This document shows positions 9,489 through 44,832 of a stretch of 64,000 bases of DNA, one piece after another. The DNA lies in NCBI GenBank assembly GCA_017510065.1, contig JAFWOB010000114.1, positions 19,953 through 83,952 on the forward strand, written 5' to 3'. Position numbers and translations under genes: made by a program. The notes beneath the pieces are model-generated. The model had not been told where the DNA came from. It ran no database searches and saw only the letters and a program-made list of their open reading frames with translations. This DNA is from Parasporobacterium sp. (GTDB lineage: Bacteria > Bacillota > Clostridia > Lachnospirales > Lachnospiraceae). How positions within the stretch are numbered: the stretch's first letter is position 1; every line of letters starts with the position of its first letter.

Positions 9489-9796
9489 AAGAACACGGAG
9501 TATTCTTTATTTTAGATTTTTTGAAACATAAGAATACAAAGTGTTCTTTTTTTCAGCCTTTTTCATATTTGAGAACAGGCCATGTATTCTTAAATTCCGG
9601 TAAATGCTCAGATGAGAATATTTTATATTCTTTAATAAGGCAAATATAAAAATAGAGAATACTTGACTTGTTCTCTAAAAATGAAAAATGGCTAATCAAG
9701 AACACTTTGTAGTCTCAAATATGGGAAAACTCCAATTGAAGAACACCTGATGTTCTCAAATCTGGCAAATGGCTAAATCAAGAACGCCGGGTGTTC
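9489..9796. repeat. Palindrome array 1, eight units with 41-43 bp period
   Basis: Between the nitroreductase stop and the BASS promoter there is no gene. Instead dyads of the form AAGAACAC-N4-GTGTTCTT begin at 9489, 9530, 9571, 9614, 9655, 9698, 9739 and 9780, giving steps of 41, 41, 43, 41, 43, 41 and 41. A degraded half-site (GTTCT) lies near 9461. Individual dyads vary (AAGAACAC/TATTCTT, AAGAATAC/GTGTTCTT, GAGAATAC/TTGTTCTC) but keep internal symmetry. Linkers are AT-rich; the last ones read CTCAAATCTGGCAAATGGC and match the linker of the array at 44.5 kb. It is not a CRISPR, because linkers are related rather than unique. Confidence 0.85.
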
Positions 9797-9825
9797 ATGC
9801 AAACCATACATATGGACCAGGGGGA

Positions 9826-9854
9826 TTGATTGTCCCGGGGTGATCTCCTATAAT
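9826..9854 (+). promoter_or_regulatory. Sigma-A-type promoter for BASS transporter gene
   Basis: TTGATT at 9826-9831 and TATAAT at 9849-9854 are separated by exactly 17 bp. Transcription would start near 9861, giving a leader of about 60 nt to ATG 9922. It lies 30 bp after the last palindrome of the repeat array. Confidence 0.75.
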
Positions 9855-9921
9855 AAAATTCAATTATATACAGGATACCAATAACGAAAACTGTTTTACA
9901 CTTTACTGATCAATCACCACC

Positions 9922-10848
9922 ATGCAGAAAATCACTGGATTCATCGGCAGATATATGTCCCTGATCGTGCTGGCAGTAGCTTTGCTGGCTTTATTTGTGC
10001 CGTCTTCCTGCATCTGGATCCGGACGTCCTGGGTTGAGTATCTGCTGATGGTCATCATGTTCGGAATGGGACTGACGCTGAAGCCGGCAGATTTCCTGAT
10101 CGTCTTTCGAAGACCGAAAGATATCCTGATCGGATGTATTGCCCAGTTTACGATCATGCCTTTGCTGGCATTCCTGCTGGGGAAACTCTTTTCCCTGGAC
10201 ACAGCCCTCCTGGCCGGAGTCGTTCTGGTGGGGGCATGCCCTGGCGGAACTTCCAGCAATGTTATGACCTACCTGAGCGGCGGCGATGTGGCACTGTCTG
10301 TCGGAATGACCAGCGTCAATACATTGCTGGCGCCGTTTCTCACGCCTGCGATCTCCTATCTGCTGTTAAGTACAAAAGTATCCGTCAATGTCCTCAGCAT
10401 GTTTTTGTCCATCATAAAAGTCGTGATCGTTCCTATCGTGCTGGGGTTTATCCTGAATTACTTTCTGAAAAAACAGACACAGAAGATATCAGGACTTCTG
10501 CCTGTGGTCTCCGTGATTGCGATCGCCATGATCGAAGCTGCCGTTGTGTCCCACAATTCTGCGCAGATCCTTTCAACGGGTGTTTTGATCTTTGTTGTTG
10601 TGATCCTGCATAACCTGCTGGGCTACGCAGCAGGTTATCTGCTTGCGGTTCTGTTCCACATGCCATTGTCCCGGAAGAAAGCATTATCGATTGAAATCGG
10701 GATGCAAAACTCAGGACTGGCGACATCGCTTGCAGGCAGTGCGTTCCCGGATCTTTCCATGGCTACCGTTCCGGGAGCTGTGTTTTCGGTATGGCATAAT
10801 ATCTCCGGAGCGATCCTGGCGAATATTTACCGCCGGATTAAGCAGTGA
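9922..10848 (+). CDS. Bile acid:sodium symporter (BASS) family transporter
   Basis: A 308-residue protein of about nine or ten hydrophobic segments. FGMGLTLKPADF and GACPGGTSSNVMTYL (the conserved GGT-S-N crossover motif), followed by LSVGMTSVNTLLAP, identify the BASS/SBF family, which moves organic anions such as bile acids, pantoate or keto acids with sodium. The substrate is unknown. No clear Shine-Dalgarno sequence is present before ATG 9922 (the upstream bases are ATCAATCACCACC), which is unusual in this window and suggests inefficient or SD-independent initiation. The amidotransferase-type gene follows 41 bp downstream. Confidence 0.9.
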   Translation: MQKITGFIGRYMSLIVLAVALLALFVPSSCIWIRTSWVEYLLMVIMFGMGLTLKPADFLIVFRRPKDILIGCIAQFTIMPLLAFLLGKLFSLDTALLAGVVLVGACPGGTSSNVMTYLSGGDVALSVGMTSVNTLLAPFLTPAISYLLLSTKVSVNVLSMFLSIIKVVIVPIVLGFILNYFLKKQTQKISGLLPVVSVIAIAMIEAAVVSHNSAQILSTGVLIFVVVILHNLLGYAAGYLLAVLFHMPLSRKKALSIEIGMQNSGLATSLAGSAFPDLSMATVPGAVFSVWHNISGAILANIYRRIKQ

Positions 10849-10889
10849 ACGTTTTCAGCGTTGAATATATAGGAAAGGTGTAATGAAAG

Positions 10890-11594
10890 ATGAAACCGAT
10901 GATTGGCGTCATGCCGTTGTGGGATGAAACGAAAGACAGTATCTGGATGCTTCCCGGATATTTTGAAGGAATCGAAAAAGCCGGAGGGATCCCTGTTATG
11001 TTTCCGCTTACGGACGATGAAGCAGACGTTGATCAGCTGGTCGATGTATGTGACGGCTTTTTATTTACCGGCGGCCATGACGTATCACCCGAAATCTATC
11101 ATGAAGATACCTTGCCGGGAACAATCCCCTGTATTCAGCGGGATCGTTTGGAAACTCTTTTGCTCAGGAAAGCGATCGAAACTGATAAACCGGTTCTGGG
11201 TATCTGCCGCGGGATCCAGTTTATGAATGCAGCTCTTGGTGGCTCTTTGTATCAGGATATTCCAACGCAGTGTCCGTCAGCGACAGAGCACCATCAGAAA
11301 GCTCCTTATGATATTCCATGTCATACTGTCCGGATCAAAAAGGAATCTCCGTTATATGAATGTTTAAAGACAGAAGTATTACCTGTAAACAGCTGCCATC
11401 ATCAGGCTGTCAGGACATTGGCTTTCGGACTGGAGGAGATGGCTTGCGCTGAAGATGGCCTGATCGAAGCTTTGTATATGCCGTCCAGGAGATTCCTATG
11501 GGCGGTTCAGTGGCATCCTGAGTTTTCCTATAAGAGTGATGAAAACAGTATGGAGATATTCCGCGCCTTTATCAAGGCATGCTCAGAAAAATAG
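10890..11594 (+). CDS. Gamma-glutamyl-gamma-aminobutyrate hydrolase family protein (class I GATase-like, C26)
   Basis: 234 residues of a class I glutamine amidotransferase fold. The nucleophile is the Cys of GICRG (about residue 100), with the partner His-Glu in VQWHPEF near the C-terminus; FTGGHDVSPE is the oxyanion-strand loop. Peptidase family C26 members such as PuuD split gamma-glutamyl amides; others act on folate polyglutamates or ureidosuccinate-type compounds. ATG 10890 has AGGAAAGGTG nine bases upstream. It is probably co-transcribed with the BASS carrier, which may import its substrate (inference). Confidence 0.88.
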   Translation: MKPMIGVMPLWDETKDSIWMLPGYFEGIEKAGGIPVMFPLTDDEADVDQLVDVCDGFLFTGGHDVSPEIYHEDTLPGTIPCIQRDRLETLLLRKAIETDKPVLGICRGIQFMNAALGGSLYQDIPTQCPSATEHHQKAPYDIPCHTVRIKKESPLYECLKTEVLPVNSCHHQAVRTLAFGLEEMACAEDGLIEALYMPSRRFLWAVQWHPEFSYKSDENSMEIFRAFIKACSEK

Positions 11595-11605
11595 GAACGT
11601 GCTGT

Positions 11606-12157
11606 TTATTCTTCCAGATCAAGACGCATGAGCACCAGTTCCTGCCATCCGGTCAGCCGGGAGCGAAAACCTTTCGGGTTCCTGCCGTATTCGGTAAATC
11701 CCAGGCTTTTATAAAGAGCAATGGCTTTGTTGTTCTCCGATACCACTTCCAGTTCCAACTGGCGATATCCTGCTGATTTCGCGCATTTGATGCAGGCATT
11801 GGTCAGTGCACGTCCGATACCGAGACCCCAATAGGCTTTGTCCACGCTGATCCCAAATTCGGCCCGGTGTTTTGTCTTGTCTTTTTTGCCGATACATCCG
11901 ATCCCGGCGGAACCGACAACGGTACCGTCCACCTCTGCCAAGATCTCGATCTCGTTCCGGCTCAGGACTTTTTCCTTTAAAAACTGTGCTTCCTGCTCAA
12001 CAGTCATAGTTGCTTCATCCGGATAAGAAAGCAGATAGTCTGTCTGGGCATGGGTCAGGATAAAGATATCCAGTAGAGCCTGTCCGTCCTTTTCTGTCCC
12101 ATTTCGGAGGATACAGGTTCTTTTGTCTTTCAGTGTGATCGTTTCGTTATATTCCAT
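11606..12157 (-). CDS. GNAT family N-acetyltransferase
   Basis: 183 residues. The acetyl-CoA-binding core is visible as FGISVDKAYWGLGIGRALT (the R/Q-x-x-G-x-G/A loop modified to WGLGIGRA), followed by LELEVVSENNKAIALYKSLGF, the conserved N-x-x-A-x-x-x-Y-x-x-x-GF signature. This resembles RimJ/RimL-type and small-molecule acetyltransferases; the acceptor is unknown. AAAGGGA lies before ATG 12157 on the minus strand and a near-consensus promoter is just upstream. Its 3' end converges on the amidotransferase-type gene with an 11 bp gap. Confidence 0.88.
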   Translation of the reverse strand: MEYNETITLKDKRTCILRNGTEKDGQALLDIFILTHAQTDYLLSYPDEATMTVEQEAQFLKEKVLSRNEIEILAEVDGTVVGSAGIGCIGKKDKTKHRAEFGISVDKAYWGLGIGRALTNACIKCAKSAGYRQLELEVVSENNKAIALYKSLGFTEYGRNPKGFRSRLTGWQELVLMRLDLEE

Positions 12158-12196
12158 AAAGTCCCTTTCATGCTAAATTTCATTTCGTTTTTGTCT

Positions 12197-12225
12197 GTTA
12201 TAGTAACATGGTGGTGATTTGTCAA
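12197..12225 (-). promoter_or_regulatory. Sigma-A-type promoter for GNAT gene
   Basis: Read on the minus strand: TTGACA (12225-12220), a 17 bp spacer, then TATAAC (12202-12197). This is close to the full consensus and lies about 40 bp upstream of the GNAT start. Confidence 0.85.
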
Positions 12226-12324
12226 TTCCGGGTATACGGCAGCATAAACCTCACATGCATCTTGCAACAAAAAAGTAAGTGGGGTATTCTGAAAAGCAAT
12301 GAAGAGCATAGGAGATCATGTCTG

Positions 12325-12897
12325 ATGCAGTTTGGAATGCCAACCCTTATCGAGAACCGGACGTTAGAAGATAACGTGGATCTTTGCCGCAGTCTGGGGC
12401 TTCAGTTTATAGAACTGAATATGAATTTTCCGGAGTATCAGGCAGAACAGCTGGAACAGACAGAGCATTTGCTGGATCTTGCCCGGAAAGCCGGGATCTA
12501 TTACACCATTCATCTGGATGAGAATCTGAATATTGCGGATTTCAACCCGCTGGTATCAGAGGCGTATCTGGAAACGGTCAGACGGTCGATTATAGTAATG
12601 AAAAAGCTTCTATGCCTGTGCGATCAGTACGGCGATGTCACGCAGCCGCTGACTCTTAACATGCATATGAACCATGGGATCTATATCACTTTGCCTGAGC
12701 GGAAAGTTCAGATGTACGACCGCGATTTAGACACCTATATGCAATCTATTGTGGTATTTCGTGAAAAGTGTGAGGAATGGATCGGAGAAGCTGATGTGAT
12801 GATCGCTGTTGAAAATACAGATGGGTTCAGGGAGTATGAAAAAAGAGCGATCGAATATCTCCTGGAAAGCCGGGCGTTCGGACTGACCATAGGATGA
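12325..12897 (+). CDS. Sugar phosphate isomerase/epimerase-like TIM barrel, C-terminally truncated
   Basis: About 190 residues beginning MQFGMPTLIEN; ATG 12325 has AGGAGA nine bases upstream. LCRSLGLQFIELNMN, YYTIHLDENLNI, LNMHMNHGIYITLP and IAVENTDGF are barrel strands with metal-ligand-type His and Glu residues of the xylose-isomerase-like/AP-endonuclease-2 family. Family proteins normally run to 250-280 residues, and the strand at FGLTIG should continue to a W/F-D-x-GH-type metal ligand; instead a TGA ends it at 12897. Neither shifted frame resumes the family pattern. It is likely an inactive or decaying gene. Confidence 0.6.
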   Translation: MQFGMPTLIENRTLEDNVDLCRSLGLQFIELNMNFPEYQAEQLEQTEHLLDLARKAGIYYTIHLDENLNIADFNPLVSEAYLETVRRSIIVMKKLLCLCDQYGDVTQPLTLNMHMNHGIYITLPERKVQMYDRDLDTYMQSIVVFREKCEEWIGEADVMIAVENTDGFREYEKRAIEYLLESRAFGLTIG

Positions 12898-12910
12898 TGG
12901 GGATAAATGT

Positions 12911-13411
12911 ATGAGGATCAGAAAGACAACAGAAGCAGATTTTGACCGGATTACAGAGATTTATGCGCATGCCAGGGATTTCATGGCAAAAACGGGAAAC
13001 CCGAATCAATGGGGACCGACGAACTGGCCGCCGGAGACTTTGCTCCATAATGACATCCGGGAAGGGAACAGCTATGTGTGTATGGATGATAACGGAGCAG
13101 TGGTCGGTGTTTTTTTCTTCCTGCAGGGACAGGATATCGAACCGACTTATCGAGAAATAACCGACGGGGCATGGATCGGTGACGATACCTACGGAGTGGT
13201 TCACAGGATCGCTTCCGACGGTTCTGAGAAAGGGATCGGACAATTCTGCATTAACTGGGCTTTTGAACAGTGCGGTCATTTAAGGATGGATACCCATACG
13301 GATAATGTGATCATGCAGCATGTTCTGAACAAACTGGGCTTTACAAAATGCGGGATCATCTATGTCGTCGAGGACCATTATCCGAGATATGCCTACGAAA
13401 AGATCAAATAG
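12911..13411 (+). CDS. GNAT family N-acetyltransferase
   Basis: 166 residues with MRIRKTTEADFDRITEIY, a typical GNAT first strand and helix, and VHRIASDGSEKGIGQFCI as the acetyl-CoA pyrophosphate loop (degenerate Q/R-x-x-G-x-G). The C-terminal part, RMDTHTDNVIMQHVLNKLGF, is the usual GNAT end, with asparagine and the GF turn. This is a common Firmicutes acetyltransferase type of unknown acceptor. It starts 13 bp after the truncated TIM-barrel gene and ends 12 bp before a strong AGGAGG of the next gene, so it sits in the same transcription unit. Confidence 0.87.
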   Translation: MRIRKTTEADFDRITEIYAHARDFMAKTGNPNQWGPTNWPPETLLHNDIREGNSYVCMDDNGAVVGVFFFLQGQDIEPTYREITDGAWIGDDTYGVVHRIASDGSEKGIGQFCINWAFEQCGHLRMDTHTDNVIMQHVLNKLGFTKCGIIYVVEDHYPRYAYEKIK

Positions 13412-13423
13412 GAGGTAATACCA

Positions 13424-14260
13424 ATGACGCAAAGAATAAAACGTATTTCTGGAATGATCGTTATCATCTGCATGATGGTTTGTTTGTTCGCCGGATTATC
13501 TTCTGCCGAAGAAATGAAGGCAGGATCGCTGGAACGGATTAAAGAAGAGGGGCTGCTCCGTGTAGGAACAACCGGAGATTATCAGCCCATGTCCTTTCTG
13601 GATCCGGAAACAAATGAATATGTAGGTTTTGATGTATCGATCGTGGAAGATCTGGCGGAATCGCTGGGGGTTCAGATCGAGTATGTGGAAACGACATGGC
13701 CTTCTCTGATGGAAGATACGCTTGCCGGAAAATTCGATCTGGCCATCTGCGGGATCACGATCACTGAAGCAAGAAAAGAGCAGGCCCTGATGTCAGAAGG
13801 CTATCTGGTTAACGGAAAAACTGTTCTGTGCCGAAGTGAGGATGCGGAAAAATACGTGTCCCTGGGTGCGATCAATTCACCGGATGTCAGGGTGATGGAA
13901 AACCCGGGAGGGCTGAATGAAAAATTTGCCCGGGAAAATCTGCCGGATGCGGAACTGATCATTCACGATGTCAACCAGGAGATCCCAGGCCTGATCGCGG
14001 AAGGCGCAGCAGATGTCATGATCACGGAGATCATGGAAGCAGGATATTATGTGGGCCGGGACAGCCGTCTGGCGGCTCCATTGATCCATGATCCCTTTAC
14101 GCAAGGCCAGCTGGGGGTATTGATGCCCAATGGAGCAGAAGAACTCCTGTCCTATGTAAATGACTTTTTAGAACAGGAAAAAGAAAGCGGACGGATTGAT
14201 GAACTGGCAGAACTTTATATCTATCAGGATGCAGATGAACCGGCAGAGATTGCCGCATAG
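13424..14260 (+). CDS. Exported PheC-like cyclohexadienyl dehydratase / solute-binding protein family 3
   Basis: 278 residues with a Sec signal peptide ending near LSSA and no lipobox cysteine. The mature part is a periplasmic-binding-protein fold: VGTTGDYQPMSFLDPET, FDLAICGITIT, then VRVMENPGGLNEKFAREN and ADVMITEIMEAG. The TTGDYxPxSF and NPGGxNEKFARxNL strings are those of PheC, the exported dehydratase converting prephenate/arogenate, which evolved from amino-acid-binding proteins. A glutamate matching the DAIE position of PheC is kept (TEIME), which favours an enzyme, but binding-only function cannot be excluded. No ABC permease is adjacent. AGGAGGTAATACCA precedes the ATG. Confidence 0.8.
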   Translation: MTQRIKRISGMIVIICMMVCLFAGLSSAEEMKAGSLERIKEEGLLRVGTTGDYQPMSFLDPETNEYVGFDVSIVEDLAESLGVQIEYVETTWPSLMEDTLAGKFDLAICGITITEARKEQALMSEGYLVNGKTVLCRSEDAEKYVSLGAINSPDVRVMENPGGLNEKFARENLPDAELIIHDVNQEIPGLIAEGAADVMITEIMEAGYYVGRDSRLAAPLIHDPFTQGQLGVLMPNGAEELLSYVNDFLEQEKESGRIDELAELYIYQDADEPAEIAA

Positions 14261-14281
14261 AATAAAGAAAGAGAGAAATAA

Positions 14282-15427
14282 ATGGAAATGATGAATCTGA
14301 AAAAACGGAACAAAAAAGTTGCGGCAGTTATGATCATACTGGTACTGACTGCAATGTTGCTGGGCATTACCGGCTGCGGCACTTCAAAGAAACCTGCAGC
14401 TTTATCACAGTACTGGGCTGCAGATTCCACGGTCGCACAGAGCCTGAGGGATTATGTGGCAAAGGTGACGGATCCGAAGGATAAAGATCATTTTATCCCT
14501 GTTAAGGACCGGATCGCAGTATTTGATATGGACGGGACACTGACCTGTGAACAATTTTTTACTTACTACGATACGATGATGTTTATCGAGTATTGTCTGC
14601 ATGATCATCCCGAACGTGTCTCGGAGGAACTGAAGGAAGTCGCGGCATCCATCAAGCCGGGTTACATCGCGGATGAAGCACTTGCCAGAAATTTTGCCAA
14701 AGCATATGCAGGGATGACAGTAGAGGAATTCTATGATTATGCTGTTCAATTCGGTCAGAAGTTTACGTCAAGTTTTGAAAACATGCATTACAACGATTGC
14801 TGCTATTTGCCGATGGCGGAACTGGTGCAGTATCTTTATGAAAACGAGTTTACGATCTATGTGATCAGTGGGACTGAACGTACGACTTCCCGTGCGATCA
14901 TAGCGAATACCCCGCTGAAGGAGTATGTCACGCTGAATCACGTGATCGGTACGGATTTTGAGGTAAAACAAAAAGGATATGAGACAGAATCGTCGAACAT
15001 GAACTACAAGTATGAAAACGGAGATGAGCTCATCCTGACAGGCGGTTTTATCCAGAAGAATCTCAACGGAAATAAATCCATTTACATTCAAAGAGAGATC
15101 GGACAGCGTCCTGTGCTCGCATTCGGAAATACTAAAAGCGATACCAGTATGATGAATTATACGATCGACAGTCGTAATCAGTATCCGGCCCAGGCTTATA
15201 TGGTGGTTGCAGATGATGCCGTAAGGGAATGGGGAAAACAGGACTGGGAAGAGAAGTCTTCGGAGTACATGGAAATGGGATATATTCCGGTTTCCATGCG
15301 GACCGATTTCGCACAGATCTATCCGGAAGGCATTATGCCTGCGGCTGAACAGTACCAGGAAGCTGAATGGACAGATGCCCGGCCGGAAAGTGAAACGGAA
15401 GAAGAAACGTTGAAAGATGCAGCGTGA
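14282..15427 (+). CDS. HAD-family phosphatase lipoprotein
   Basis: 381 residues. The N-terminus has basic residues, a hydrophobic stretch and the lipobox LGITGC, so it should be anchored outside the membrane. HAD motif I is IAVFDMDGTLTCE near residue 83-95; motif II is YVISGTERT; motif IV is LAFGNTKSDTSMM. The large insertion after motif I resembles phosphoserine-phosphatase-like exported HAD proteins. It would dephosphorylate a small molecule in the extracellular space. The C-terminus is acidic (ESETEEETL). Context: 21 bp after the PheC-like gene, 38 bp before the racemase-like gene. Confidence 0.83.
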   Translation: MEMMNLKKRNKKVAAVMIILVLTAMLLGITGCGTSKKPAALSQYWAADSTVAQSLRDYVAKVTDPKDKDHFIPVKDRIAVFDMDGTLTCEQFFTYYDTMMFIEYCLHDHPERVSEELKEVAASIKPGYIADEALARNFAKAYAGMTVEEFYDYAVQFGQKFTSSFENMHYNDCCYLPMAELVQYLYENEFTIYVISGTERTTSRAIIANTPLKEYVTLNHVIGTDFEVKQKGYETESSNMNYKYENGDELILTGGFIQKNLNGNKSIYIQREIGQRPVLAFGNTKSDTSMMNYTIDSRNQYPAQAYMVVADDAVREWGKQDWEEKSSEYMEMGYIPVSMRTDFAQIYPEGIMPAAEQYQEAEWTDARPESETEEETLKDAA

Positions 15428-15465
15428 CAGAAGCGAAAAAACTGACGAATACGAGGATTTCACAA

Positions 15466-16116
15466 ATGAAAATAGCAGTGATCAATGCAACAAAAGTTTC
15501 CATTGACCCGGTAGATCAGGCAGCTGAAGCGTATCCGGGTCTTGAGATCTTTCATCTTATGGATGAAGGAATGTCCTGGCTGGGAAAAAAGGAAGGCAGG
15601 ATCTCCGGGAAAAATCTTGCCAGGATGATCAGTCTGATCCATAGTGCTGAAGAACTCGGCGTTGACGGAATTCTACTGTCCTGTACGATCTTTTCTCCTT
15701 TTATCGATCAGCTGAGAATGTGTACAGATCTTCCTTTGGTTGCAGCAGACATCGGCGTATTTGAAAAAGCTGCTCAGTTATATCAGAAAATAGGAACGAT
15801 CGTGTCTTTCGCACCTACACTGGAAAGTGTTGCCTGGGTGGTGGACAGGTGCAAAAAATATGTGAAAAAGGATTTTGATGCGGAGATCCGATATGCGGAA
15901 GGAGCATTTGAAGCAGCCGCTGCCGGAAAAGATGACGAGCATAACCGCATCATATATAGAACTGCAGCGCAGTTTAAAGAGAAAGAGGCCATCGTACTGT
16001 CCCAGATGTCTCAGGTCCGTGCACTGCCTTTGTTTAAGGACTATCCGATCCCTGTGCTGTCGTCCCCCTCGGTAAGTCTGGAACTGCTGATCGAAAAGAT
16101 CAGGAAGGAAAAATAA
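15466..16116 (+). CDS. Asp/Glu racemase-superfamily protein, second cysteine absent
   Basis: About 216 residues from ATG 15466, chosen because GAGGA lies 8-9 bases upstream; a GTG at 15424 overlapping the previous gene has no site. MKIAVINATKVSID and GILLSCTIFSPFID place it in the aspartate/glutamate/hydantoin racemase superfamily with the first catalytic cysteine. Where the second cysteine is expected the sequence is EAIVLSQMSQVRAL, with Gln/Ser instead. Loss of one cysteine occurs in decarboxylase and isomerase branches of the superfamily, so racemization is not assured. Cytoplasmic, in the same gene string as its neighbours. Confidence 0.78.
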   Translation: MKIAVINATKVSIDPVDQAAEAYPGLEIFHLMDEGMSWLGKKEGRISGKNLARMISLIHSAEELGVDGILLSCTIFSPFIDQLRMCTDLPLVAADIGVFEKAAQLYQKIGTIVSFAPTLESVAWVVDRCKKYVKKDFDAEIRYAEGAFEAAAAGKDDEHNRIIYRTAAQFKEKEAIVLSQMSQVRALPLFKDYPIPVLSSPSVSLELLIEKIRKEK

Positions 16117-16157
16117 GATAGATCAAAAATGTTTTATGGAAATGGAGAGTGAATACA

Positions 16158-16988
16158 ATGAAAATAGCGGTTACTCATGATAACGGTGAAGTGTTTCAGC
16201 ATTTTGGACATACCGAAGAGTTCAAAGTGTATCATGTTGAAGACGGCGTGGTAACAGATACGGAACTGGTCGGTTCGAATGGAAGCGGTCATGGAGCTTT
16301 AGCGGAACTGTTAAGCAATCATGCGGTGGATGTTCTGATCTGCGGCGGCATCGGAGGCGGTGCCCAGGCAGCATTGACAGAACATGGGATAGAACTGTGC
16401 GCAGGTGCTTCCGGCAGCGCAGACGAAGCAGTTAAGGCTTATCTTAGAGGAGAGCTGATCAATACAGGGGCAAACTGTACCCATCATGAAGAAGGGCATT
16501 CCTGTAGCGATCATGAAGGACATCAATGCGGCGGCTGCCATGCCGGTTCAAAGATAGAAGGTAAAAATGTCGGCAAGACCTGCAGAACTCATTACAGAGG
16601 AACCTTCAATGACGGCAGTCAGTTTGATTCTTCCTATGACAGAGGAGAACCTCTGGAATTTGTATGCGGCGCCGGAATGATGATCAAAGGGTTTGATCAG
16701 GCGGTAGCAGACATGGAAGTCGGTGAAACGGTGCAGATCCATCTGATGCCATCGGAAGCTTATGGAGAGCCGGATCCGAGTGCCATTCTTACGGTAGCGC
16801 TTTCCCAGATGCCGGGGGCGGAAAACCTGAATGTAGGTGACCAGGTATACCTGCAGAATACGTACGGGCAGACTTTTCCTGTGAAAGTGACCGATAAAAA
16901 CGAGGAAACGATAACATTTGATGCGAACCATGAAATGGCGGGAAAAGAATTGAATTTCACGATAGAACTTGTGGAAGTACTGGACTAA
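16158..16988 (+). CDS. Fusion of NifX/NafY-type cofactor-binding domain and SlyD-like FKBP isomerase
   Basis: About 276 residues from ATG 16158 (GGAGAG 8-9 bases upstream). Residues 1-105 are a dinitrogenase iron-molybdenum cofactor domain: MKIAVTHDNGEVFQHFGHT, then DVLICGGIGGGAQAAL. Residues about 108-135 are a linker rich in His and Cys (HHEEGHSCSDHEGHQCGGCH). Residues 136-276 are a SlyD-type FKBP: YRGTFNDGSQFDSSYD, MIKGFDQAVADMEVGE, SEAYGEPDP, then the insert-in-flap domain and the ELNFTIELVEV end. It is cytoplasmic. The linker probably binds metal, as SlyD's own tail does. Fusion of a cluster-binding domain to a prolyl isomerase suggests metal-cofactor handling; this is inference. Confidence 0.88.
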   Translation: MKIAVTHDNGEVFQHFGHTEEFKVYHVEDGVVTDTELVGSNGSGHGALAELLSNHAVDVLICGGIGGGAQAALTEHGIELCAGASGSADEAVKAYLRGELINTGANCTHHEEGHSCSDHEGHQCGGCHAGSKIEGKNVGKTCRTHYRGTFNDGSQFDSSYDRGEPLEFVCGAGMMIKGFDQAVADMEVGETVQIHLMPSEAYGEPDPSAILTVALSQMPGAENLNVGDQVYLQNTYGQTFPVKVTDKNEETITFDANHEMAGKELNFTIELVEVLD

Positions 16989-17000
16989 AGAGGGAAGAGC

Positions 17001-18281: not shown

Positions 18282-18437
18282 TCTTGTGGATTAACTAATG
18301 AAAATAGGACACAGATCAGCATGAATATTATGTATATAATGTATTTTTTGCCGTACATTCAGACATGCTTCCTTTTGGCTTATATCGTGGAACATGTCTG
18401 TTTTTTTGAAAAATGTGGGGGCGATTATGATCAAATT

Positions 18438-18502
18438 GGACAAAAATAACCTCAAACAAGACAAGTTTAGGGGCATATTTTGTCCTTCTTATTTGGTATA
18501 AT
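18438..18502 (+). promoter_or_regulatory. Inverted repeat and -10 element upstream of GH3 gene
   Basis: An imperfect dyad has arms at 18438-18457 and 18465-18485; the outer eight bases (GGACAAAA/TTTTGTCC) are perfectly inverted and the inner ends (CAAAC/GTTTA) partly so. TATAAT follows at 18497-18502, so the right arm lies where a -35 region would be. This looks like a repressor or activator operator for the glycosidase-importer operon. No convincing -35 hexamer was seen. Confidence 0.5.
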
Positions 18503-18561
18503 ATTCACAACTTGAAATCTGATGTAACATAAATTCCCGTCATATCATGAAAGGAAGACTT

Positions 18562-20661: not shown

Positions 20662-20792
20662 GATATATTATTTTGTAAGATTTTGGCTCTGCGGTCTCTG
20701 CCTGCTGCCCTGGATCATCTGCGGGCGGACGCTGCAGTCCTGATCCGATAAACACAGGTACATTTTTCATGTAAAAACAGGAGGATAAGAGT

Positions 20793-23048: not shown

Positions 23049-23049
23049 C

Positions 23050-33671: not shown

Positions 33672-33680
33672 GAATTCATT

Positions 33681-34322: not shown

Positions 34323-34361
34323 TGAATTGAAGTGATTATTACAGAAAGACTGGAAAAAAGG

Positions 34362-37203: not shown

Positions 37204-37213
37204 TCCTTTTTTA
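37184..37213 (+). terminator. Rho-independent terminator of legionaminate operon
   Basis: AAGGATCAG (37184-37192) and CTGATCCTT (37200-37208) form a perfect 9-bp stem with a 7-nt loop and a T-rich tail; the stem includes the legF stop codon. Confidence 0.92.
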
Positions 37214-37271
37214 ATCTGATTTAAGTTTCATGATCTAACATTAGCCTCAGAAACAACAGGAGGTTAATGAA

Positions 37272-38294
37272 ATGAAAAAGTTTCTAGTAATGATCATGGC
37301 ACTTATCGTATCGTTCTGTATGGCTATTCCTGCAGCGGCAGAGGAGCCGGCAGCAGACAGTCAGGGACAGGAATCAGCCGGGGAATCGGCAGGAGAATCC
37401 GCAGAAGGTGAAAGCCAGGGCGAACATGGCGGACCTCGCGGTGACAGCAACGGAGGATCCGGCGGAATGCAGAATGATGAAACGGTCCAGGCCGCACTCG
37501 ACGAAGTGGCAGGAACATTCATCCAGGAGACATTTACAGACCCCGATACAGGAGTTGAGTTGGAATACAGCCTTTTTATCCCTGTTGAGTACTCAGAAGA
37601 CCAGAGCTATCCGATGATCATGTTCATTCCGGATGCGACAGGATCAGGAAAAAGCGCAGAAGATATTGTAAGCAGCTATTACGGCGCTGCAGTATGGGCA
37701 ACGGAAGAAGAACAGGCAAAACATCCGTCCTTTGTATTTGTTCCTGCTTTTACGGAAACCGTTGTAGATGACAACTGGAATACTTCTGATCAGATCGAGA
37801 CAGCAGTCAAAGCAATCCGGTATCTGACAGAGACTTACAGCATCGATACAGACAGGTTATATACAACGGGCCAGTCCATGGGATGTATGACATCGCTGTA
37901 TCTGAACAGCAGATATCCGGACCTTTTTGCAGCTTCCATGTATGTATCGGGACAATGGGATATTTCTGTTCTTGGGAATATGACAGACCAGACGTTCTTT
38001 TATATCACTTCTGCAGGCGATAACAAAGCATCCGGCGGGCAGAGTGAGGTTATGGCAATGTTCGAGGAAGCAGGTGTATCATACACCTACGGAGAGTGGA
38101 ATTGTCAGGAAGAGAACCAGTCAGAACTGGTCAGCGAGCTGATCGCGGAAGGACTCCCCGCCAATATGGTCCGGTTTGAAGCGCAATATACAGATGAGTC
38201 CGGAAACGAACAGACGCTCGGACATATGCAGTCTTTCAATTATGGATATAAACTGGAAGCCGTCAGGGACTGGCTGTTTGCACAGTCAAAATAA
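37272..38294 (+). CDS. Secreted alpha/beta-hydrolase (esterase/peptidase-like, COG4099 type)
   Basis: 340 residues: Sec signal ending AAAAEE (cleavage near AMA/AAA, no lipobox), then a low-complexity linker of Glu/Ser/Gly repeats at about 25-65, then an alpha/beta-hydrolase domain. YTTGQSMGCMTSLYL has the nucleophile Ser in G-Q-S-M-G, and HMQSF near the end holds the catalytic His. This pattern fits exported esterases related to feruloyl esterases and PHB-depolymerase-like proteins. AGGAGGTTAATGAA precedes ATG. It stands alone after the legionaminate terminator. Confidence 0.82.
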   Translation: MKKFLVMIMALIVSFCMAIPAAAEEPAADSQGQESAGESAGESAEGESQGEHGGPRGDSNGGSGGMQNDETVQAALDEVAGTFIQETFTDPDTGVELEYSLFIPVEYSEDQSYPMIMFIPDATGSGKSAEDIVSSYYGAAVWATEEEQAKHPSFVFVPAFTETVVDDNWNTSDQIETAVKAIRYLTETYSIDTDRLYTTGQSMGCMTSLYLNSRYPDLFAASMYVSGQWDISVLGNMTDQTFFYITSAGDNKASGGQSEVMAMFEEAGVSYTYGEWNCQEENQSELVSELIAEGLPANMVRFEAQYTDESGNEQTLGHMQSFNYGYKLEAVRDWLFAQSK

Positions 38295-38310
38295 AGGTAC
38301 CTGAGCAGCT

Positions 38311-39387
38311 TTACAGGATATGGATGCTGTTTTCATCGAAGACTACAAACGCTTTGTCTCCAACCTCATAGATTTTTTTATTCTTAGGATTGAAGACAGA
38401 GATCTTGATCACCGTGTCGCCGACCAGTACATGATAATTCTGGTAGCTTCCCATGAAACAGCTTAATATGACTTCACACGGGAGCTGTCCTGCATCGGCC
38501 AGGACAGCTCCTTCCGGCCTGAGAACTACCGTGCAGTCATCTCCTGTGAAAGAATACCCGTTATCGGGGATCTCCACGATATTATTGTCAATATTGATGA
38601 GATATTTATCGCCGGTTTTTCCGGCAACATGCCCTTTCAGGAAATTGGCTTCCCCGATAAAGTCTGCCACGAATTCGTTAACAGGCTGATAATAGATTTC
38701 CTGAGGCGTTCCTACCTGTGCCTTGACGCCTTTTTCCATAATGATGATCTGATCAGAGATCGCCATGGCTTCGCTCTGGTCATGGGTTACATAGATGGCC
38801 GTAATACCGGCTTCCTGCTGGATCCTCCTGATCTCGGTACGCATAGAGACTCTGAGTTTTGCATCCAGGTTGGACAAGGGTTCGTCAAACAGCAGAACGC
38901 CCGGTTCCAGAACCAATGCCCTGGCAAGAGCAACTCTTTGCTGCTGACCGCCCGATAACTGGTTGGTCATCCTGGCTTCGCTGCCTTCCAACCCTACCAG
39001 GGCGAGAATATCGGTTACTTTCCTGCGGATGGTTTCCTTGTCCAGTTTGCGCAGCTTTAAGCCGTAAGCGATATTGTCATATACATTATAGTGGGGAAGA
39101 AGGGCATAGCTTTGGAACACCATCGCCGTATCACGTTTGTTTGGAGTGATGGCATTGATGGCTTCGTCTCCCAGATAGATTTCCCCTTCATCCGGACTTT
39201 CAAAACCGGCTATCATACGAAGAATGGTGGTCTTGCCGCATCCGGAGGGACCAAGCAGGGTTACAAAACTGCCCGGTTCTATATCCAGGGACACATCATG
39301 CACCGCATAAAAATCTTTCCGGGTTTTGGGATCTTTGTAAATTTTTGATACATGTTCCAGACGAACTCCCTTTTTTTCTTTTGCCAT
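38311..39387 (-). CDS. ABC importer ATPase, PotA/FbpC/PhnT-like
   Basis: About 358 residues; ATG 39387 (MAKEKKG) is favoured over ATG 39399 because GGAG lies 6-7 bases before it. Walker A is GPSGCGKTT, signature LSGGQQQRVALARAL, Walker B VLLFDEPLSNLDAK. A C-terminal TOBE domain occupies about residues 240-358. This group drives uptake of ferric iron, 2-aminoethylphosphonate, polyamines or phosphorylated sugars. Third gene of a minus-strand operon, 26 bp after the permease. Confidence 0.9.
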   Translation of the reverse strand: MAKEKKGVRLEHVSKIYKDPKTRKDFYAVHDVSLDIEPGSFVTLLGPSGCGKTTILRMIAGFESPDEGEIYLGDEAINAITPNKRDTAMVFQSYALLPHYNVYDNIAYGLKLRKLDKETIRRKVTDILALVGLEGSEARMTNQLSGGQQQRVALARALVLEPGVLLFDEPLSNLDAKLRVSMRTEIRRIQQEAGITAIYVTHDQSEAMAISDQIIIMEKGVKAQVGTPQEIYYQPVNEFVADFIGEANFLKGHVAGKTGDKYLINIDNNIVEIPDNGYSFTGDDCTVVLRPEGAVLADAGQLPCEVILSCFMGSYQNYHVLVGDTVIKISVFNPKNKKIYEVGDKAFVVFDENSIHIL

Positions 39388-39412
39388 TGTTGTCTCCATT
39401 CTATGATATCGG

Positions 39413-41122
39413 TTAATTGTTTACGATTTTCCTGCTGGTGCCGAAATGCCGGATGATAAAATTCATCAGGAGAACGGAACCGTAGGTGATAACGATCAGG
39501 ATCGTTGCGAAAGCACATGCGATGCCGTAGGAGCCTTTTTCCGCAAATTCATTGATCTGTACCGTGATCAAGAGGAACTGCGGAGTGACCAGCAGTATGA
39601 TAGCACTGATGGCCGTGATGCTGCGGACGAAGGCTGTGACAAGACCGCTCAGGAAACTGTCCTTGATCAGCGGCAAAGTAACGCTGGTAAACACTTTCAG
39701 GCTTCCTGCGCCCATGTCATAAGCCGATTCTTCAATGCTTTTATCTATCTGCCTTAGGGCAGAGATACCGCTCCTGGTTCCGGTGGGAAGGGAACGTACG
39801 ATAAATACTATGACAAGGATCGCACCGGTTCCGTACAGTCCCTGCAGTATCCCGGTTCTGAAGATTCCTCCCGCAAAACCCCGGATATATCCAACGCCGA
39901 GAACCGTTCCGGGCACGGCCATGGCCAGCATGGAAACGGCTTCAATAAATCCTTTTGCCTTGAATTTCTTCTTTACGACCAGATACGAGATGATCATGGA
40001 CAAAAGCGCGGTGATCGGGGCTGCGATCAGTGACAGGACAAAGGAGTCTTTAAATGCTTTAAGACCTTTGTAACGTACAAATACCTGCTCAAACCATCTG
40101 GTGGTCAGATGGAAATCATATCCCCATGTCCGGAATAATGCCCCGAAAGGAATACATACATACATCAGTATGACAAAGATCGCCAGAGCGGAGCACAGGA
40201 TCGTCAATGGCCTGGTAACGCTCTTGTCCGTGATAAGCATTCTTTCACGGGAAGCCTTTCCGGAAAGGGTGGCAGTGCTTTTTCGTTCCAGATAGTATTT
40301 CTGGACCACAAACATGACAAGGGTAATGAAGAGCAGCACCACCGCCATGGCGGCCGCCCCGTTTTTGTCATAGGCGCCTGTGATCTGCAGATAGATAGTT
40401 GTTGCAAGGGTATCATAAGATCCGCCTATGATCATGGGGTTTGCAAAATCTGCGATCGATTCGATAAAGGTTACCAGAAATGCATTTCCGATACCCGGAA
40501 GGATCAAAGGGAGTGTGACCGTCATAAAGACCTTCCATCTGGAAGCCCCCATATCCCGGGCAGCTTCTTCCAGAGAAGGGTCAATGTTTTTTAAAAGACC
40601 TCTGAACATCATGTAACAGACAGGAAAGAAGGTCAGCGTCTGAACGATCGCGATACCCCAGAATCCATAAACACTGTTGTCATAGATGCCCAGAAGATAT
40701 CTGGTAATGATCCCGGATTTTCCAAACAACATGATCAGGGAAAGAGACAGAACAAAGGGAGGGGATACAACAGGCAGCATGGAAACCACTTTGAAAATGC
40801 CGCCCATAAACCTGGTCCTCAGTTTGACATATACTTCAACATAGGCAAATAAAAGACCGATAAAAGAGGAAGCAATTCCAACCAGGAATCCTACTTTCAA
40901 CGTATTGGTAATGGCAGTCTGGAAACTCTTCATCCCCAGGACCCGGCTGAATACGGAAAGTGAGATGCCGTCACCGGTGATCACACTGTCTACCAGAAGG
41001 ATTGCCAGCGGATAGAGGATAAACAGAGTCAGAAAGGCAATTAAAACAACGATGGTAGTCACCATAACGGGATCTGCCATGAATTTTTTTCGGTCCAGGG
41101 ACGCACTTTGGCTTTTAGTCAT
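39413..41122 (-). CDS. ABC importer permease, two-domain FbpB/PhnU-like
   Basis: 569 residues made of two fused permease halves with about twelve hydrophobic segments. Each half has an EAA loop: SLEEAARDMGASRWKVFMTVTLP and SIEESAYDMGAGSLKVFTSVTLP. This double layout is typical of ferric-iron (FbpB/AfuB) and 2-aminoethylphosphonate importers. GCAGGAGCCC lies before ATG 41122 on the minus strand. A perfect hairpin separates it from the binding-protein gene upstream in the operon. Confidence 0.92.
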   Translation of the reverse strand: MTKSQSASLDRKKFMADPVMVTTIVVLIAFLTLFILYPLAILLVDSVITGDGISLSVFSRVLGMKSFQTAITNTLKVGFLVGIASSFIGLLFAYVEVYVKLRTRFMGGIFKVVSMLPVVSPPFVLSLSLIMLFGKSGIITRYLLGIYDNSVYGFWGIAIVQTLTFFPVCYMMFRGLLKNIDPSLEEAARDMGASRWKVFMTVTLPLILPGIGNAFLVTFIESIADFANPMIIGGSYDTLATTIYLQITGAYDKNGAAAMAVVLLFITLVMFVVQKYYLERKSTATLSGKASRERMLITDKSVTRPLTILCSALAIFVILMYVCIPFGALFRTWGYDFHLTTRWFEQVFVRYKGLKAFKDSFVLSLIAAPITALLSMIISYLVVKKKFKAKGFIEAVSMLAMAVPGTVLGVGYIRGFAGGIFRTGILQGLYGTGAILVIVFIVRSLPTGTRSGISALRQIDKSIEESAYDMGAGSLKVFTSVTLPLIKDSFLSGLVTAFVRSITAISAIILLVTPQFLLITVQINEFAEKGSYGIACAFATILIVITYGSVLLMNFIIRHFGTSRKIVNN

Positions 41123-41146
41123 GATCGGGCTCCTGCTGTATTAGAA

Positions 41147-41177
41147 TGCAGGGCGGAAAACCTGTTTCCGCCCTGCA
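41147..41177 (-). other. Perfect 13-bp hairpin between binding protein and permease genes
   Basis: TGCAGGGCGGAAA (41147-41159) and its exact complement (41165-41177) enclose a 5-nt loop. On the minus strand it follows the binding-protein stop by 15 bases and has no T-run, as with the hairpins at 22056 and 48145. Confidence 0.8.
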
Positions 41178-41192
41178 TGATTTCTGTGCTTC

Positions 41193-42278
41193 TTATTCTG
41201 TCTTGAAACGGTCGTCTCCGCCGCCTAATGCTGTCATAACTTCTTCAATGTATTTGCTGGTATTCTGCTTAGCATCTTCGAAGTCATAGTCCATTACGTT
41301 TTCAGGATCAAGACCGAACTCTGCAGCAATTTCAGGTTGCTGCGCATTGTCGATCGTAAGGAACTGGTAGGAGCCGTTCTTTGCAGCCAACTCTACGCAT
41401 TCCGGACTGAGCGCATATTCGATCCACAGTTTTGCAGCATTCGGATGCTGGCAGCCTTTGAAGATCGCGGTAGCGCCGATCTCGAAGGAGGTTCCCGATG
41501 AAGGAATGATCAGCTGGATGTTTCCATAGCCATTATCCACGATCTGGGTGATGCCGTCATGCAGGAAGCCGATACCTACAACGCATTCTCCTGTACCGAC
41601 GTTCTTGGACGGACCGGAGCCGGACTTGGTATAGATCTCAATGTTCTTGTCAAGATCCACAAGATACTGGATACCTTCATCATGGCCGAATTTCTGGATC
41701 ATGGTATTGACAACCAGTTTTGCTGTTCCTGCTGTGTTGTAGTTGGACAGCCAGATCAGGCCTTCATATTTGGGATCCAGCAGATCTGTCCAATCCTGCG
41801 GTGCTTCGATTCCCATTCTGTCCAGTTCATCAGCATTAACCATAAAGCCGAGAATTCCCTTGTAGATACCATACCATGCACCCTCTGCATCACGGTATGC
41901 AGGGCTGATCAGATGGCTTGCGTTGATCGCTTCATAAGGCTCCAGGAGTCCGCCTGCTGCTGCCTCATTATAAGGATCCGTTGTTCCGCCGAACCAGACA
42001 TCGCCGGAAGGATTGCCGTTTTCTTCCTCGATCTTGGCCTGGACTTCACCGGTGGAGAGACGCTGATACTGGACATCGATGCCGTAGAGCTCAGCAAAGT
42101 GATCACATGCTGCAGCAAGATAATCTTCCTCGCAGGAACCATAGACCACTAAAGTGCCTTCTTCCTGGGCTGCCGCGATCAGGTCTTCCGGAATAGCTGC
42201 TTCCTCGGCGAATGCAGTGGTTCCGAAAAGACCCAGGACCAATACTGCTGCCAACAATACTGTCAATAGTTTTTTCAT
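41193..42278 (-). CDS. Solute-binding protein for Fe3+/phosphonate-type ABC importer
   Basis: About 361 residues from ATG 42278 (TGGAGGTAAAAAC before it); an in-frame start at 42314 would add twelve residues. Signal peptide ends at TAFA, without a lipobox cysteine. TLVVYGSCEEDYLAAA, DVWFGGTTDPYNEAA and SGSGPSKNVGTGECVVGIGF match the AfuA/FbpA/PhnS-like family 1/6 binding proteins. No Tyr-Tyr iron ligand pair is evident, so a phosphorylated organic ligand is as likely as iron. First gene of its operon. Confidence 0.88.
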   Translation of the reverse strand: MKKLLTVLLAAVLVLGLFGTTAFAEEAAIPEDLIAAAQEEGTLVVYGSCEEDYLAAACDHFAELYGIDVQYQRLSTGEVQAKIEEENGNPSGDVWFGGTTDPYNEAAAGGLLEPYEAINASHLISPAYRDAEGAWYGIYKGILGFMVNADELDRMGIEAPQDWTDLLDPKYEGLIWLSNYNTAGTAKLVVNTMIQKFGHDEGIQYLVDLDKNIEIYTKSGSGPSKNVGTGECVVGIGFLHDGITQIVDNGYGNIQLIIPSSGTSFEIGATAIFKGCQHPNAAKLWIEYALSPECVELAAKNGSYQFLTIDNAQQPEIAAEFGLDPENVMDYDFEDAKQNTSKYIEEVMTALGGGDDRFKTE

Positions 42279-42515
42279 GTTTTTACCTCCATCCTTAATA
42301 ATGATCCGAAACATGCCCGTTCATCCCAAGGGCGTGTTCGTCTTGTTCATTATGCTATATCATATTTAAAAAAAATTCAATTCTTTGTGCATAATTTGCA
42401 ATAGTAAAATATACCGGAATCTCATTATTTCCAAAAATGAATAGATATCCAAGGATAGATAATATATATTGATAAAGTAAAGCATTATCTTGGCACCATA
42501 GAAAGGAGACTTATC

Positions 42516-43466
42516 ATGAAAGGTTGGGAATTTACTGGTACACATCAGCCTCTTAAGATCGTAGAAAAGCCGGATCCGAAGGCGAAACCGGGATATGTTG
42601 TTCTGAAGACACTGGCAGGGGGCCTTTGTCATTCAGATGTCAGTGCCCTGGACATCGAGTCCTGGATGGGAAGCTTCAACGTTCCGGTTATCATGGGACA
42701 TGAGGTGTGCGGCGAGATCGTTGAGATCGGCGAAGGCGTAGAAGGATATGCGGTTGGTGATATCGTTGCTGTATGCCCGCTGTATGCGAAAGACGGAACA
42801 ACCCCCGGATATACCCGTGACGGCGGATACGGAACCATGACGACAGCTCCGGTGGAACAGCTGGTCAAGGTGCCGGAAGGACTTGCTCCGGCAAAAGCTG
42901 CAGCTGCAACGGATGCAGGCGCAACTTCCTATCATGCTGTTTGTACAGTAGGTGGTGTAGGTGCCGGAACGAAGGTCGGTATCATCGGCGTCGGCGGACT
43001 CGGACAGTTTGCTGTGCGTATTGCCGTCCTGAAGGGAGCGGAAGTTTACGTGGCAACAAGAAAGCCATCCGCACAGGAACGCGCTCTCAGCCTCGGCGCA
43101 AAAGAGGTTAAGCCCAGCATTACTGATTTTGCAGATAAAAACCTGGATGTGATCATCGATTTCGCAGGAGCTGGCAAAACCACCGCAGACGCACTCAATA
43201 CAGTAAAACAGTACGGCAAGGTTGTACTGGTCGGTATGGCAAGCGACAAATCCGAGATCTATACATACTCCATGATCTTCAAGGAACTGACATTTATGGG
43301 ATCCCAGGGCAGTACAACAGAAGACCTCAGAGGATGTCTTGAACTCCTTGCAAGCGGAGAGCTTGATCCGAAGATCAATATCTGCACGTTTGATGAGATC
43401 GGAGAGGGAATCGACAGACTGCGCAGAGGCGAGATCGATGGACGACTTGTCTGCCTGTATGATTGA
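42516..43466 (+). CDS. Zinc-type alcohol dehydrogenase lacking the structural-zinc lobe
   Basis: 316 residues of the medium-chain dehydrogenase family. Catalytic-zinc ligands are present: Cys in GGLCHSDVS and the His-Glu pair in IMGHEVCGEI; the NAD(P) loop is GIIGVGGLGQFA. Between DIVAVCPLYA and DGGYGTM, the usual lobe with four zinc-binding cysteines is missing, which explains the short length (family norm about 340). AAAGGAGA precedes ATG 42516. The CobW-like gene downstream overlaps its end. Substrate unknown. Confidence 0.87.
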   Translation: MKGWEFTGTHQPLKIVEKPDPKAKPGYVVLKTLAGGLCHSDVSALDIESWMGSFNVPVIMGHEVCGEIVEIGEGVEGYAVGDIVAVCPLYAKDGTTPGYTRDGGYGTMTTAPVEQLVKVPEGLAPAKAAAATDAGATSYHAVCTVGGVGAGTKVGIIGVGGLGQFAVRIAVLKGAEVYVATRKPSAQERALSLGAKEVKPSITDFADKNLDVIIDFAGAGKTTADALNTVKQYGKVVLVGMASDKSEIYTYSMIFKELTFMGSQGSTTEDLRGCLELLASGELDPKINICTFDEIGEGIDRLRRGEIDGRLVCLYD

Positions 43467-44454
43467 TACCCGTATCGTATACGGCTTTCCCGGAGGGGGA
43501 AAAACCCATTATATAAGAGACTGTATCAGAAATGATTATTTTCACAAATACGGCTTTACATTGATCCTTTGCTTTGAGCGGGGAGAAGAAGAGTATGATG
43601 CAGAGGAACTCCGGGAGAAAAAAGCTTTCGCGGCATATTATGAAGACGGTACAGAGATAGGGGCATTCTGCATAGAACAGATCAGGATCCATCATCCTGA
43701 CCGGATCTACGTGGAGATGAATGCAAAACTTCCGGATCTGAGAAGGGAATTTCCCGAGTCGATGAATGTGACATCTGCGGTGACGTGGATCGACTGGACG
43801 GCTCTGGAGTCTCATTTTGCAAATGACAGACAGATGATCAGTCAGATGGTTTCGGAATCTCTGCAGATCACATTTCGGAACTGTCCGTCCAAAGATCTTC
43901 TGGCACCTTACGGACAGGACTTTCAATTGATGAACCACAGGGCTTCCTATCTCAGGGAAGATCCGATGGGATATCACGAGAGAGCATTTGACCTGTTTGT
44001 CCCTTATTCACTGGATGAGGAAAAGATCACGATCCGTGCCGGAGATTACCTGGTATTCTGGCTTGATGCAGCAGAGCATCCGGAGCATTATGAGGATAAG
44101 CTGATCTGTTTTGCCGATCCACTGGAACTAAGGCATGTTTCAGATGACAGCAAATGGTCGGCAGGACGGGTCGTTATGACCTGCTGTATGGCGGATCTTC
44201 AGTTCATGTCCTTTGAACTGACAGACACAGGGCAGAAGGATCTTTCCGGCGGATGGATCACGATGGAAGCTCTTGGGAGACTGGCAAAGGATGAATACGG
44301 CAGAAAAATCCTGAAACTGGATCCAAAGCAGTTATCATCGGCAGCGGCTCCTAAGCGTGATCTGATCCTTCAGACAAAACGACTGAGAAGACCTGATCCG
44401 TCTCTGTCCATGACGATGTTCCGGCAGATGAGCGCAGCTCATAAGACAAATTAA
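43438..44454 (+). CDS. CobW/G3E-like P-loop NTPase, possible metallochaperone
   Basis: About 338 residues. IVYGFPGGGKTHYIRDCI is a Walker A loop like the GFLGxGKT of the G3E family. LILCFERGEEEYD and VTWIDWTALESHF follow where G3E proteins have their N-E-x-G and D-x-x switch segments, and a separate C-terminal domain begins near residue 200. No CxCC-type metal motif was found, so assignment is moderate. Start: AGAGG lies 7 bases before ATG 43438, while ATG 43459 also overlaps the dehydrogenase end. Translation appears coupled to the zinc dehydrogenase, which could make it a partner for metal loading (inference). Confidence 0.6.
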   Translation: MDDLSACMIDTRIVYGFPGGGKTHYIRDCIRNDYFHKYGFTLILCFERGEEEYDAEELREKKAFAAYYEDGTEIGAFCIEQIRIHHPDRIYVEMNAKLPDLRREFPESMNVTSAVTWIDWTALESHFANDRQMISQMVSESLQITFRNCPSKDLLAPYGQDFQLMNHRASYLREDPMGYHERAFDLFVPYSLDEEKITIRAGDYLVFWLDAAEHPEHYEDKLICFADPLELRHVSDDSKWSAGRVVMTCCMADLQFMSFELTDTGQKDLSGGWITMEALGRLAKDEYGRKILKLDPKQLSSAAAPKRDLILQTKRLRRPDPSLSMTMFRQMSAAHKTN

Positions 44455-44480
44455 CAGGAGGGGATTTTTCCCCTCCTGTT
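44453..44480 (+). terminator. Hairpin terminator after CobW-like gene
   Basis: AACAGGAGGGG (44453-44463) and CCCCTCCTGTT (44470-44480) form a perfect 11-bp stem with an ATTTTT loop. The T-tract after it is weak, so termination may be partial; it starts at the gene's stop codon. Confidence 0.7.
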
Positions 44481-44517
44481 GCGTTTCTGTTGACATTCAT
44501 CTTTTATAAGAGAGTGT

Positions 44518-44832
44518 ATCCTCCTCAAATCCGGCAGATGGCCAAAACAAGAAGGGTACACCCTCCTCAAATCCGGCAGATGGCCAAAACAAGAAGGGTA
44601 CACCCTCCTCAAATCCGGCAGATGGCCAAAACAAGAAGGGCTCACCCTCCTCAAATCCGGCAGATGGCCAAAACAAGAAGGGCTCACCCTCCTCAAAATC
44701 GGCATATATCCAAAATAAGAAGGGTACACCCTCCTTAAATCCGGCAGATGGCCAAAACAAGAAGGGTACACCCTCCTCAAATCCGGCAGATGGCCAAAAC
44801 AAGAAGGGCTCACCCTCCTCAAATCCGGCAGG
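44518..44832. repeat. Tandem array 2, exact 42-bp period, seven full units plus a partial
   Basis: The string CTCCTC that opens each unit occurs at 44521, 44563, 44605, 44647, 44689, 44731 (CTCCTT), 44773 and 44815, always 42 bp apart. Each unit has a linker starting CTCAAATCCGGCAGATGGC and ending AACAAGAA, then an imperfect palindrome AGGGTACACCCT or AGGGCTCACCCT. The fifth unit is the most diverged. The array fills the gap between two convergent genes. Because 42 is a multiple of three, long repetitive frames stay open, but none has a ribosome binding site and all are considered non-coding. Confidence 0.95.

Follow-up and report, generated by a model that had tools for sequence, protein, structure and literature searches.

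What keeps a linker constant while the palindromes it joins are exchanged? The question is raised by two distant places in a 64,000-nucleotide stretch of Parasporobacterium sp. DNA (contig JAFWOB010000114.1, positions 19,953 to 83,952; the whole of it is referred to as the window). The original prediction saw there a family of dispersed repeats in which the frame stays constant and the palindromic cores differ, and this description is borne out by the dispersed copies of the element described below, with no Rfam family reaching the gathering threshold anywhere in the window. No description of such arrays was found in the literature, judging by titles and the beginnings of abstracts.

The arrays and their families

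The linker at 9753-9784 (TTCTCAAATCTGGCAAATGGCTAAATCAAGAA) is, as had been claimed, identical at 27 of 32 positions to the array near 44.5 kb in five of the seven whole units of the latter (26 and 22 of 32 in the remaining two), no other 32-mer of the window, on either strand, having more than 19/32, and the cores of the two arrays do differ, being CACCTGATG beside the linker and GGGTACACCC or GGGCTCACCC at 44.5 kb. The first array starts at 9462 rather than 9698 and holds seven different cores rather than a single repeated palindrome: it represents a single copy of an element that is dispersed in the genome and measures about 323 bp (family A, 9462-9784), with a fixed core order, made up of eight 32-nt frames (TTCTY-N22-RAGAA, one of the eight having GTCTC in the window copy), seven cores (CACGGAGTA, TACAAAGTG, CAGGCCATGTA, TATTTTATA, TACTTGACTTG, CACTTTGTA and CACCTGATG; core lengths, in order, 9, 9, 11, 9, 11, 9 and 9 nt) and half-cores at both outer ends. 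The linker itself is the outermost of these frames, which is frame 1 in the orientation of the family.

With positions 9470-9810 as the query, the window's own genome (G000; 3.47 Mb in 242 contigs) proved to hold many dispersed copies, which fall into subfamilies and, where long, are about 66-84% identical; 37 contig places were parsed, amounting to about 33 loci once three duplicates at contig ends are removed and L010 and L128, taken to be the two ends of a single locus, are counted together, next to 9 fetched from a sister genome (G012, 79% complete), which is taken to be Parasporobacterium sp. RGIG2565 since the array positions match. Forward matches to a two-frame pattern that disregards the cores number 151 in G000 and 29 in G012, with none in the other 12 genus genomes searched and one in one of 298 other genomes in a sample of the bacterial family. 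Three frames, again ignoring the cores, occur at 23 loci of a genome contig collection, six of which were assigned to these families by eye (five from RGIG2565, one from RUG12788); the other 17, likewise judged by eye, look like unrelated tandem repeats and were set aside. Locus L093, from the uncultured Lachnospiraceae assembly RUG12788, is 99.8% identical to a G000 locus over 1686 bases. The element is whole in L093 and stops inside core 3 in L061 of G000 (C143), where a 411-aa reading frame, perhaps of an insertion sequence in the palindrome, adjoins the break.

The order of the family A cores is roughly mirrored, core 2 agreeing best with the reverse complement of core 6 (0.82 of outer positions) and cores 3/5 and 1/7 agreeing at 0.65 and 0.64, with the exceptions that core 1 agrees with itself at 0.65 and that core 4 is closer to core 6 (0.67) than to itself (0.55); the spacers do not follow the mirror order. 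In the frame logo, the half-sites and A/T positions are kept and the remainder is not, and in a G012 subfamily CG replaces the TA of the main family (AGAATA to AGAACG half-sites) at mirrored positions.

The array near 44.5 kb (family B, 44522-44805) consists of seven 32-nt frames at a 42-bp period, an eighth frame being cut at about 44832; of the eight family A frames its unit is closest to frame 1, with which, once reverse-complemented, it agrees at 12.2 of 22 spacer positions on average and at 18 at most, and related arrays are present in both G000 and G012 (L139, L373). A third phased array, absent from the original prediction, lies at 60439-60671 (family C, element span about 230 bp), with TGCATGAT sites at 60459, 60500 and 60541 (spacings 41 and 41) and inverted ATCATGCA sites at 60573, 60604 and 60645 (spacings 31 and 41). 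Matching pieces of it number 140 in G000 and 42 in G012, only weak ones occurring in the rest of the genus (best E 0.03), and for 38 of the 40 loci fetched the alignment with the window copy covers 150 or more of 240 positions.

An unbiased scan, in which an 8-mer had to occur four or more times inside 320 bp with both strands considered, found no arrays in the window beyond these three; other stretches, including those from other species of the genus, gave further arrayed motifs in G000, G012, G001, G002, G006, G007 and G008, with no arrays in the stretches from G003, G004, G005 and G011; a first-order resampled control gave 0 clusters per group, except for G012 with 1. Stretches from other genera (306 kb in 20 stretches) held two non-coding inverted clusters by a criterion of our own, applied without a resampled control. 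One of the two, at L356:3199-3575 (G063, another genus), consists of AAGTACGT sites repeated every 53 bp together with inverted copies, an array of this type beyond the genus. A further family (D, GTCATGC-N-GCATGAC), of which 52 pieces were matched in G001 and 9 each in G012 and G000 (E up to 0.1), has a geometry common to the three species, with site distances of 28 and 24 and a same-type spacing of 52, with few exceptions (47/53, 21/21 and 8/12 of the spacings listed for G001, G012 and G000, respectively, the others being mostly 104). Arrays of the D type were also seen near genes, which are presumably gyrase genes, at L361 and L319, in both G000 and G012. Two other observations concern a TTTCTAA/TTAGAAA half-site family in G000 and G012 (L301, L302, L303, L315; same-strand spacings mostly 49-51 and 72) and ATTTCTAC direct repeats every 70-74 bp at L343:34-411, possibly a CRISPR array. 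Viral contigs had 0 matches for the four patterns searched (three-frame A, D, C and one A core).

Phasing, placement and turnover

Across these families the same-strand spacings are mostly 31, 41-43 and 50-53 bp, in keeping with whole helical turns of B-DNA. For 23 families (all two-stranded clusters plus two direct ones, at 44.5 kb and L308, with spacings transcribed by hand and some clusters lying inside long reading frames) the spacings peak at a period of 10.4 bp with p = 0.00025 (0 of 4000 trials, the limit of the test), the null shifting the spacings of each family randomly by up to 8 bp; the signal persists without the window families A, B and C (p = 0.0015) and with spacings of 75 bp or less only (p = 0.00025). 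Within family A the phasing is imperfect, as the core lengths of 9 and 11 displace some units by 2 bp.

As to the genes around the arrays, called for these counts by an ORF heuristic of our own, family A in both genomes sits between convergent genes 14 times, co-directional ones 11 times and divergent ones 3 times (15 with one flank missing); family C sits so 9, 15 and 3 times in G000 (one without an array call) and 2, 3 and 2 times in G012 (five not callable), and family D 3, 3 and 2 times (four not callable). The baseline over 304 kb of G000 is 32 convergent, 188 co-directional and 29 divergent junctions (n = 249), or 2, 13 and 2 where the gap is at least 250 bp. Relative to all junctions, a baseline not matched for gap length, there is a convergent excess for family A (14/28, Fisher p = 1.3e-5) and for family C in G000 (9/27, p = 0.009), with no depletion of divergent pairs at the arrays. 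Of two genus searches with the proteins flanking the first two arrays, one matched its own genome only and the second gave only distant homologues (best 32% identity).

Orthologous copies show which parts of the arrays are kept: half-sites are conserved at 391 of 398 positions in family A (two pairs, both directions summed) vs. 795 of 926 other positions, and at 441 of 469 vs. 2155 of 2565 in family C (six pairs, both directions summed, one of which, L209/L223, has no excess), figures to be read with the masks favouring half-sites, since an exact match in one species is required, and with gene conversion as an alternative source of such conservation. The L199 and L204 pairs were dropped because their G012 copies are interrupted by other DNA, and L140/L057, L134, L217/L188 and L141/L054 were also out. 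The DNA cutting these G012 family C arrays (L218 vs. L204, L210 vs. L199) possibly belongs to insertion sequences, an open frame following in L218.

The family present changes at some of the shared loci. Ten G012 loci carry A or its remnants, and at four of them (L134, L136, L137 and L140) G000 keeps an A-type array, the L134 orthologue being visible there only as two contig ends; L141 has a D array amid A remnants, its G000 counterpart having A, and L130 has A opposite a weak G000 array, made up of two CCTGTGAACG sites at a distance of 41 bp plus an inverted one, which the array scan of G000 did not list. There is no array call at the G000 counterparts of L131 and, less clearly, L133, and L135 and L138 have no clear G000 orthologue. 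L133 adjoins an apparent insertion-sequence end. As for family C, 10 of the 12 G012 loci match G000 places also holding C, and the G000 counterparts of the other two (L211, L215) are without an array call; the G012 copy at L208 is 41 and 82 bp longer than the G000 one, that is, by one and two units.

Such array-less counterparts (L131, L211 and, less clearly, L133), as well as the repeated copying of one ordered element into dispersed and subfamily-forming copies, could be expected if these were non-autonomous mobile repeats akin to BIMEs, REPINs or MITEs, whose arrays would be recognised by a transposase (the phased sites being its binding sites at the ends), with copies spreading in trans and decaying without any role for the cell. 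What occupies the array-less G000 places is, however, replaced sequence, with no clean empty site and no target duplication among the loci compared, and many copies sit at orthologous loci, where their half-sites are conserved; Y1_Tnp, moreover, has matches in 5 of the 14 genus genomes and none in the array-bearing, 79% complete G012, and there is no array in the stretch around any of the three G000 Y1_Tnp genes. The mobile-repeat explanation appears rather unlikely. Y1_Tnp as the partner of the arrays was rejected on its patchy presence and its array-free surroundings in G000.

Joint change of the palindrome arms

The joint change of both arms that the original prediction had put forward is real, but local and dependent on the family: it holds for the CG subfamily of G012 and the central palindrome of family C, and fails for the family A cores in G000. 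There, with the contig-end duplicates L126, L127 and L053 (the last merged into L042) and the near-identical strain L093 left out of the arm tests, only 2 of 30 core position pairs covary (pair 5/7 of core 3 and pair 3/7 of core 4), so that the arms are independent at 28 of the 30 pairs, close to the outcome which the prediction itself had named as speaking against it. Pooling with G012 brings 6 of 30 pairs to significance owing to the CG subfamily. A pooled test of the core arms, stratified by genome, has z = 3.1. Pairing between family A cores 1/7, 2/6 and 3/5 gives z = -0.4, 1.8 and -0.6, and across its frames 1 of 16 column pairs is above chance (p = 0.02) and several are below. An element-length hairpin as the selected structure of family A is not supported by these figures. 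A coupling of half-site classes within a frame, significant in the pooled data but not in G000 alone (p = 0.18), is not claimed either, since the G012 signal (p = 0.001) tracks the two subfamilies of that genome.

In family C, the long hairpin as a whole has 2201 of 2633 cells paired against 2173 expected (z = 3.75; slid controls z of at most 1.3), a small excess attributable to co-change located in the central palindrome: among the 33 of 41 copies with a callable centre, the letter three bases before the site is matched across the central pair in 30 (expected 16.4, p = 0.0002), whereas the outer mirrored pairs do not co-change (24/33 vs. 22.3 expected and 17/25 vs. 15.9). Two other comparisons, one between neighbours (21/33, p = 0.007) and one across (22/33, p = 0.02), are above chance, and at the orthologous locus L210/L199 both arms differ jointly between the species.

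Two explanations other than mobility bear on these results. If single-stranded structures (RNA hairpins at transcript 3' ends or DNA cruciforms) were selected for base pairing, the strong folding of the arrays (z = -9.1 for A and -9.2 for C), their location at gene 3' ends and the central co-change and hairpin excess of family C would follow; yet strong folding is expected of any palindromic array, no covariation is seen across the A frames, cores 1/7, 2/6 and 3/5 or the outer C sites, and RNA gives no reason for whole-turn spacing, which leaves this explanation improbable. Still more doubtful is a functionless by-product of mutation, by which palindromes are made and corrected, and units duplicated, through template switching and unequal exchange: the loss of whole units (41 and 82 bp) at one orthologous locus is of the expected kind, as is the confinement of joint change to the closest palindrome of family C, but neither a dispersed and ordered 323-bp element nor helical spacing across families nor half-site conservation is predicted by it. 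The mostly non-covarying A cores and the non-covarying outer C sites fit recognition in the duplex.

Candidate binding sites and their meaning

The reading preferred here, for which the chances seem about even, is that of dispersed, largely vertically inherited intergenic arrays of helically phased candidate protein-binding sites in duplex DNA, binding to the duplex being favoured by the whole-turn spacing across motifs, the conserved dyad half-sites, the A/T-rich positions between them and the little pairing signal. Each family would have a half-site of its own of about 6-10 bp, with dyad symmetry and repeated at whole turns (mostly 3, 4 and 5), and a sequence-specific protein, with one specificity per family, would bind cooperatively along a single face of the DNA. 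It would build a filament or a wrapped cluster, in many cases downstream of genes, where possible roles are the marking, insulation or ending of transcription, or a part in chromosome folding. Also in favour of this reading are the constant family D geometry in three species, the convergent bias and the whole-unit losses; counting against it are the joint change in the central C palindrome, the small pairing excess of the C hairpin, the z of 3.1 for the pooled A cores and the 2-bp displacements within A. The "identity code" suggested for the variable cores is possible, in the form of one specificity per family. No protein reading such a code was found, nor was a binding protein for the arrays identified.

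Bacteria have long been known to carry dispersed palindromic repeats, the roles of which are contested. The arrays are filed here as a variant of such intergenic repeats, distinguished by their helical phasing. REP, BIME and REPIN elements are alike in being dispersed intergenic palindromes near gene 3' ends and in forming symmetrical clusters, the difference being that the present arrays measure 230-330 bp, have phased units and lack a link to a REP transposase. REPs are described as 20-40 bp long with a GTAG or CGTC end (PMC3733652; the words Firmicutes and Clostridi- do not occur in the part of that text consulted). No palindrome of A, C or the window B array is framed by a GTAG tag, and GTAG/CTAC has no occurrence in the 44.5-kb array, a single scattered one in A and two in C; in the family B arrays L014 and L016, GTAG is found inside the palindromes (10 and 11 occurrences). 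MITEs are marked by terminal inverted repeats, a target-site duplication and clean empty sites; the present elements are internally symmetrical, and replaced sequence is found at the array-less G000 loci. CRISPR arrays have near-identical direct repeats and unique spacers, as opposed to which the units of A and C are inverted and have diverged, and spacers at identical places recur across dispersed copies.

The BOX elements of pneumococcus are modular intergenic repeats of three different modules, the middle one in tandem units of about 45 bp; going by description only, the likeness lies in modular intergenic repeats with tandem units and the difference in the mirrored units of several families, instead of three modules, seen here. 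The sites of matS, SlmA and Noc are dispersed palindromic protein sites, each single and read by one protein, to which the present sites are similar in being dispersed and palindromic and from which they differ in forming multi-site arrays of many families. The family A half-site TRTTCTY is similar to the SinR-type operator (GTTCTYT), which is a resemblance only; SinR-type operators sit at promoters.

Many differing site families obeying one 10.4-bp spacing rule point to the binding of double-stranded DNA. It is conceivable, if doubtful, that they form a class of phased arrays with many dyad-site families, one whole-turn rule and matching paralogous binders, the families swapping at the same intergenic places, which would amount to a swappable chromosome addressing or compartment system in the rumen Lachnospiraceae of this genus. 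Should there be a binder, it would amount to a chromosome-associated system of a new kind, in a large bacterial family of the gut and rumen.
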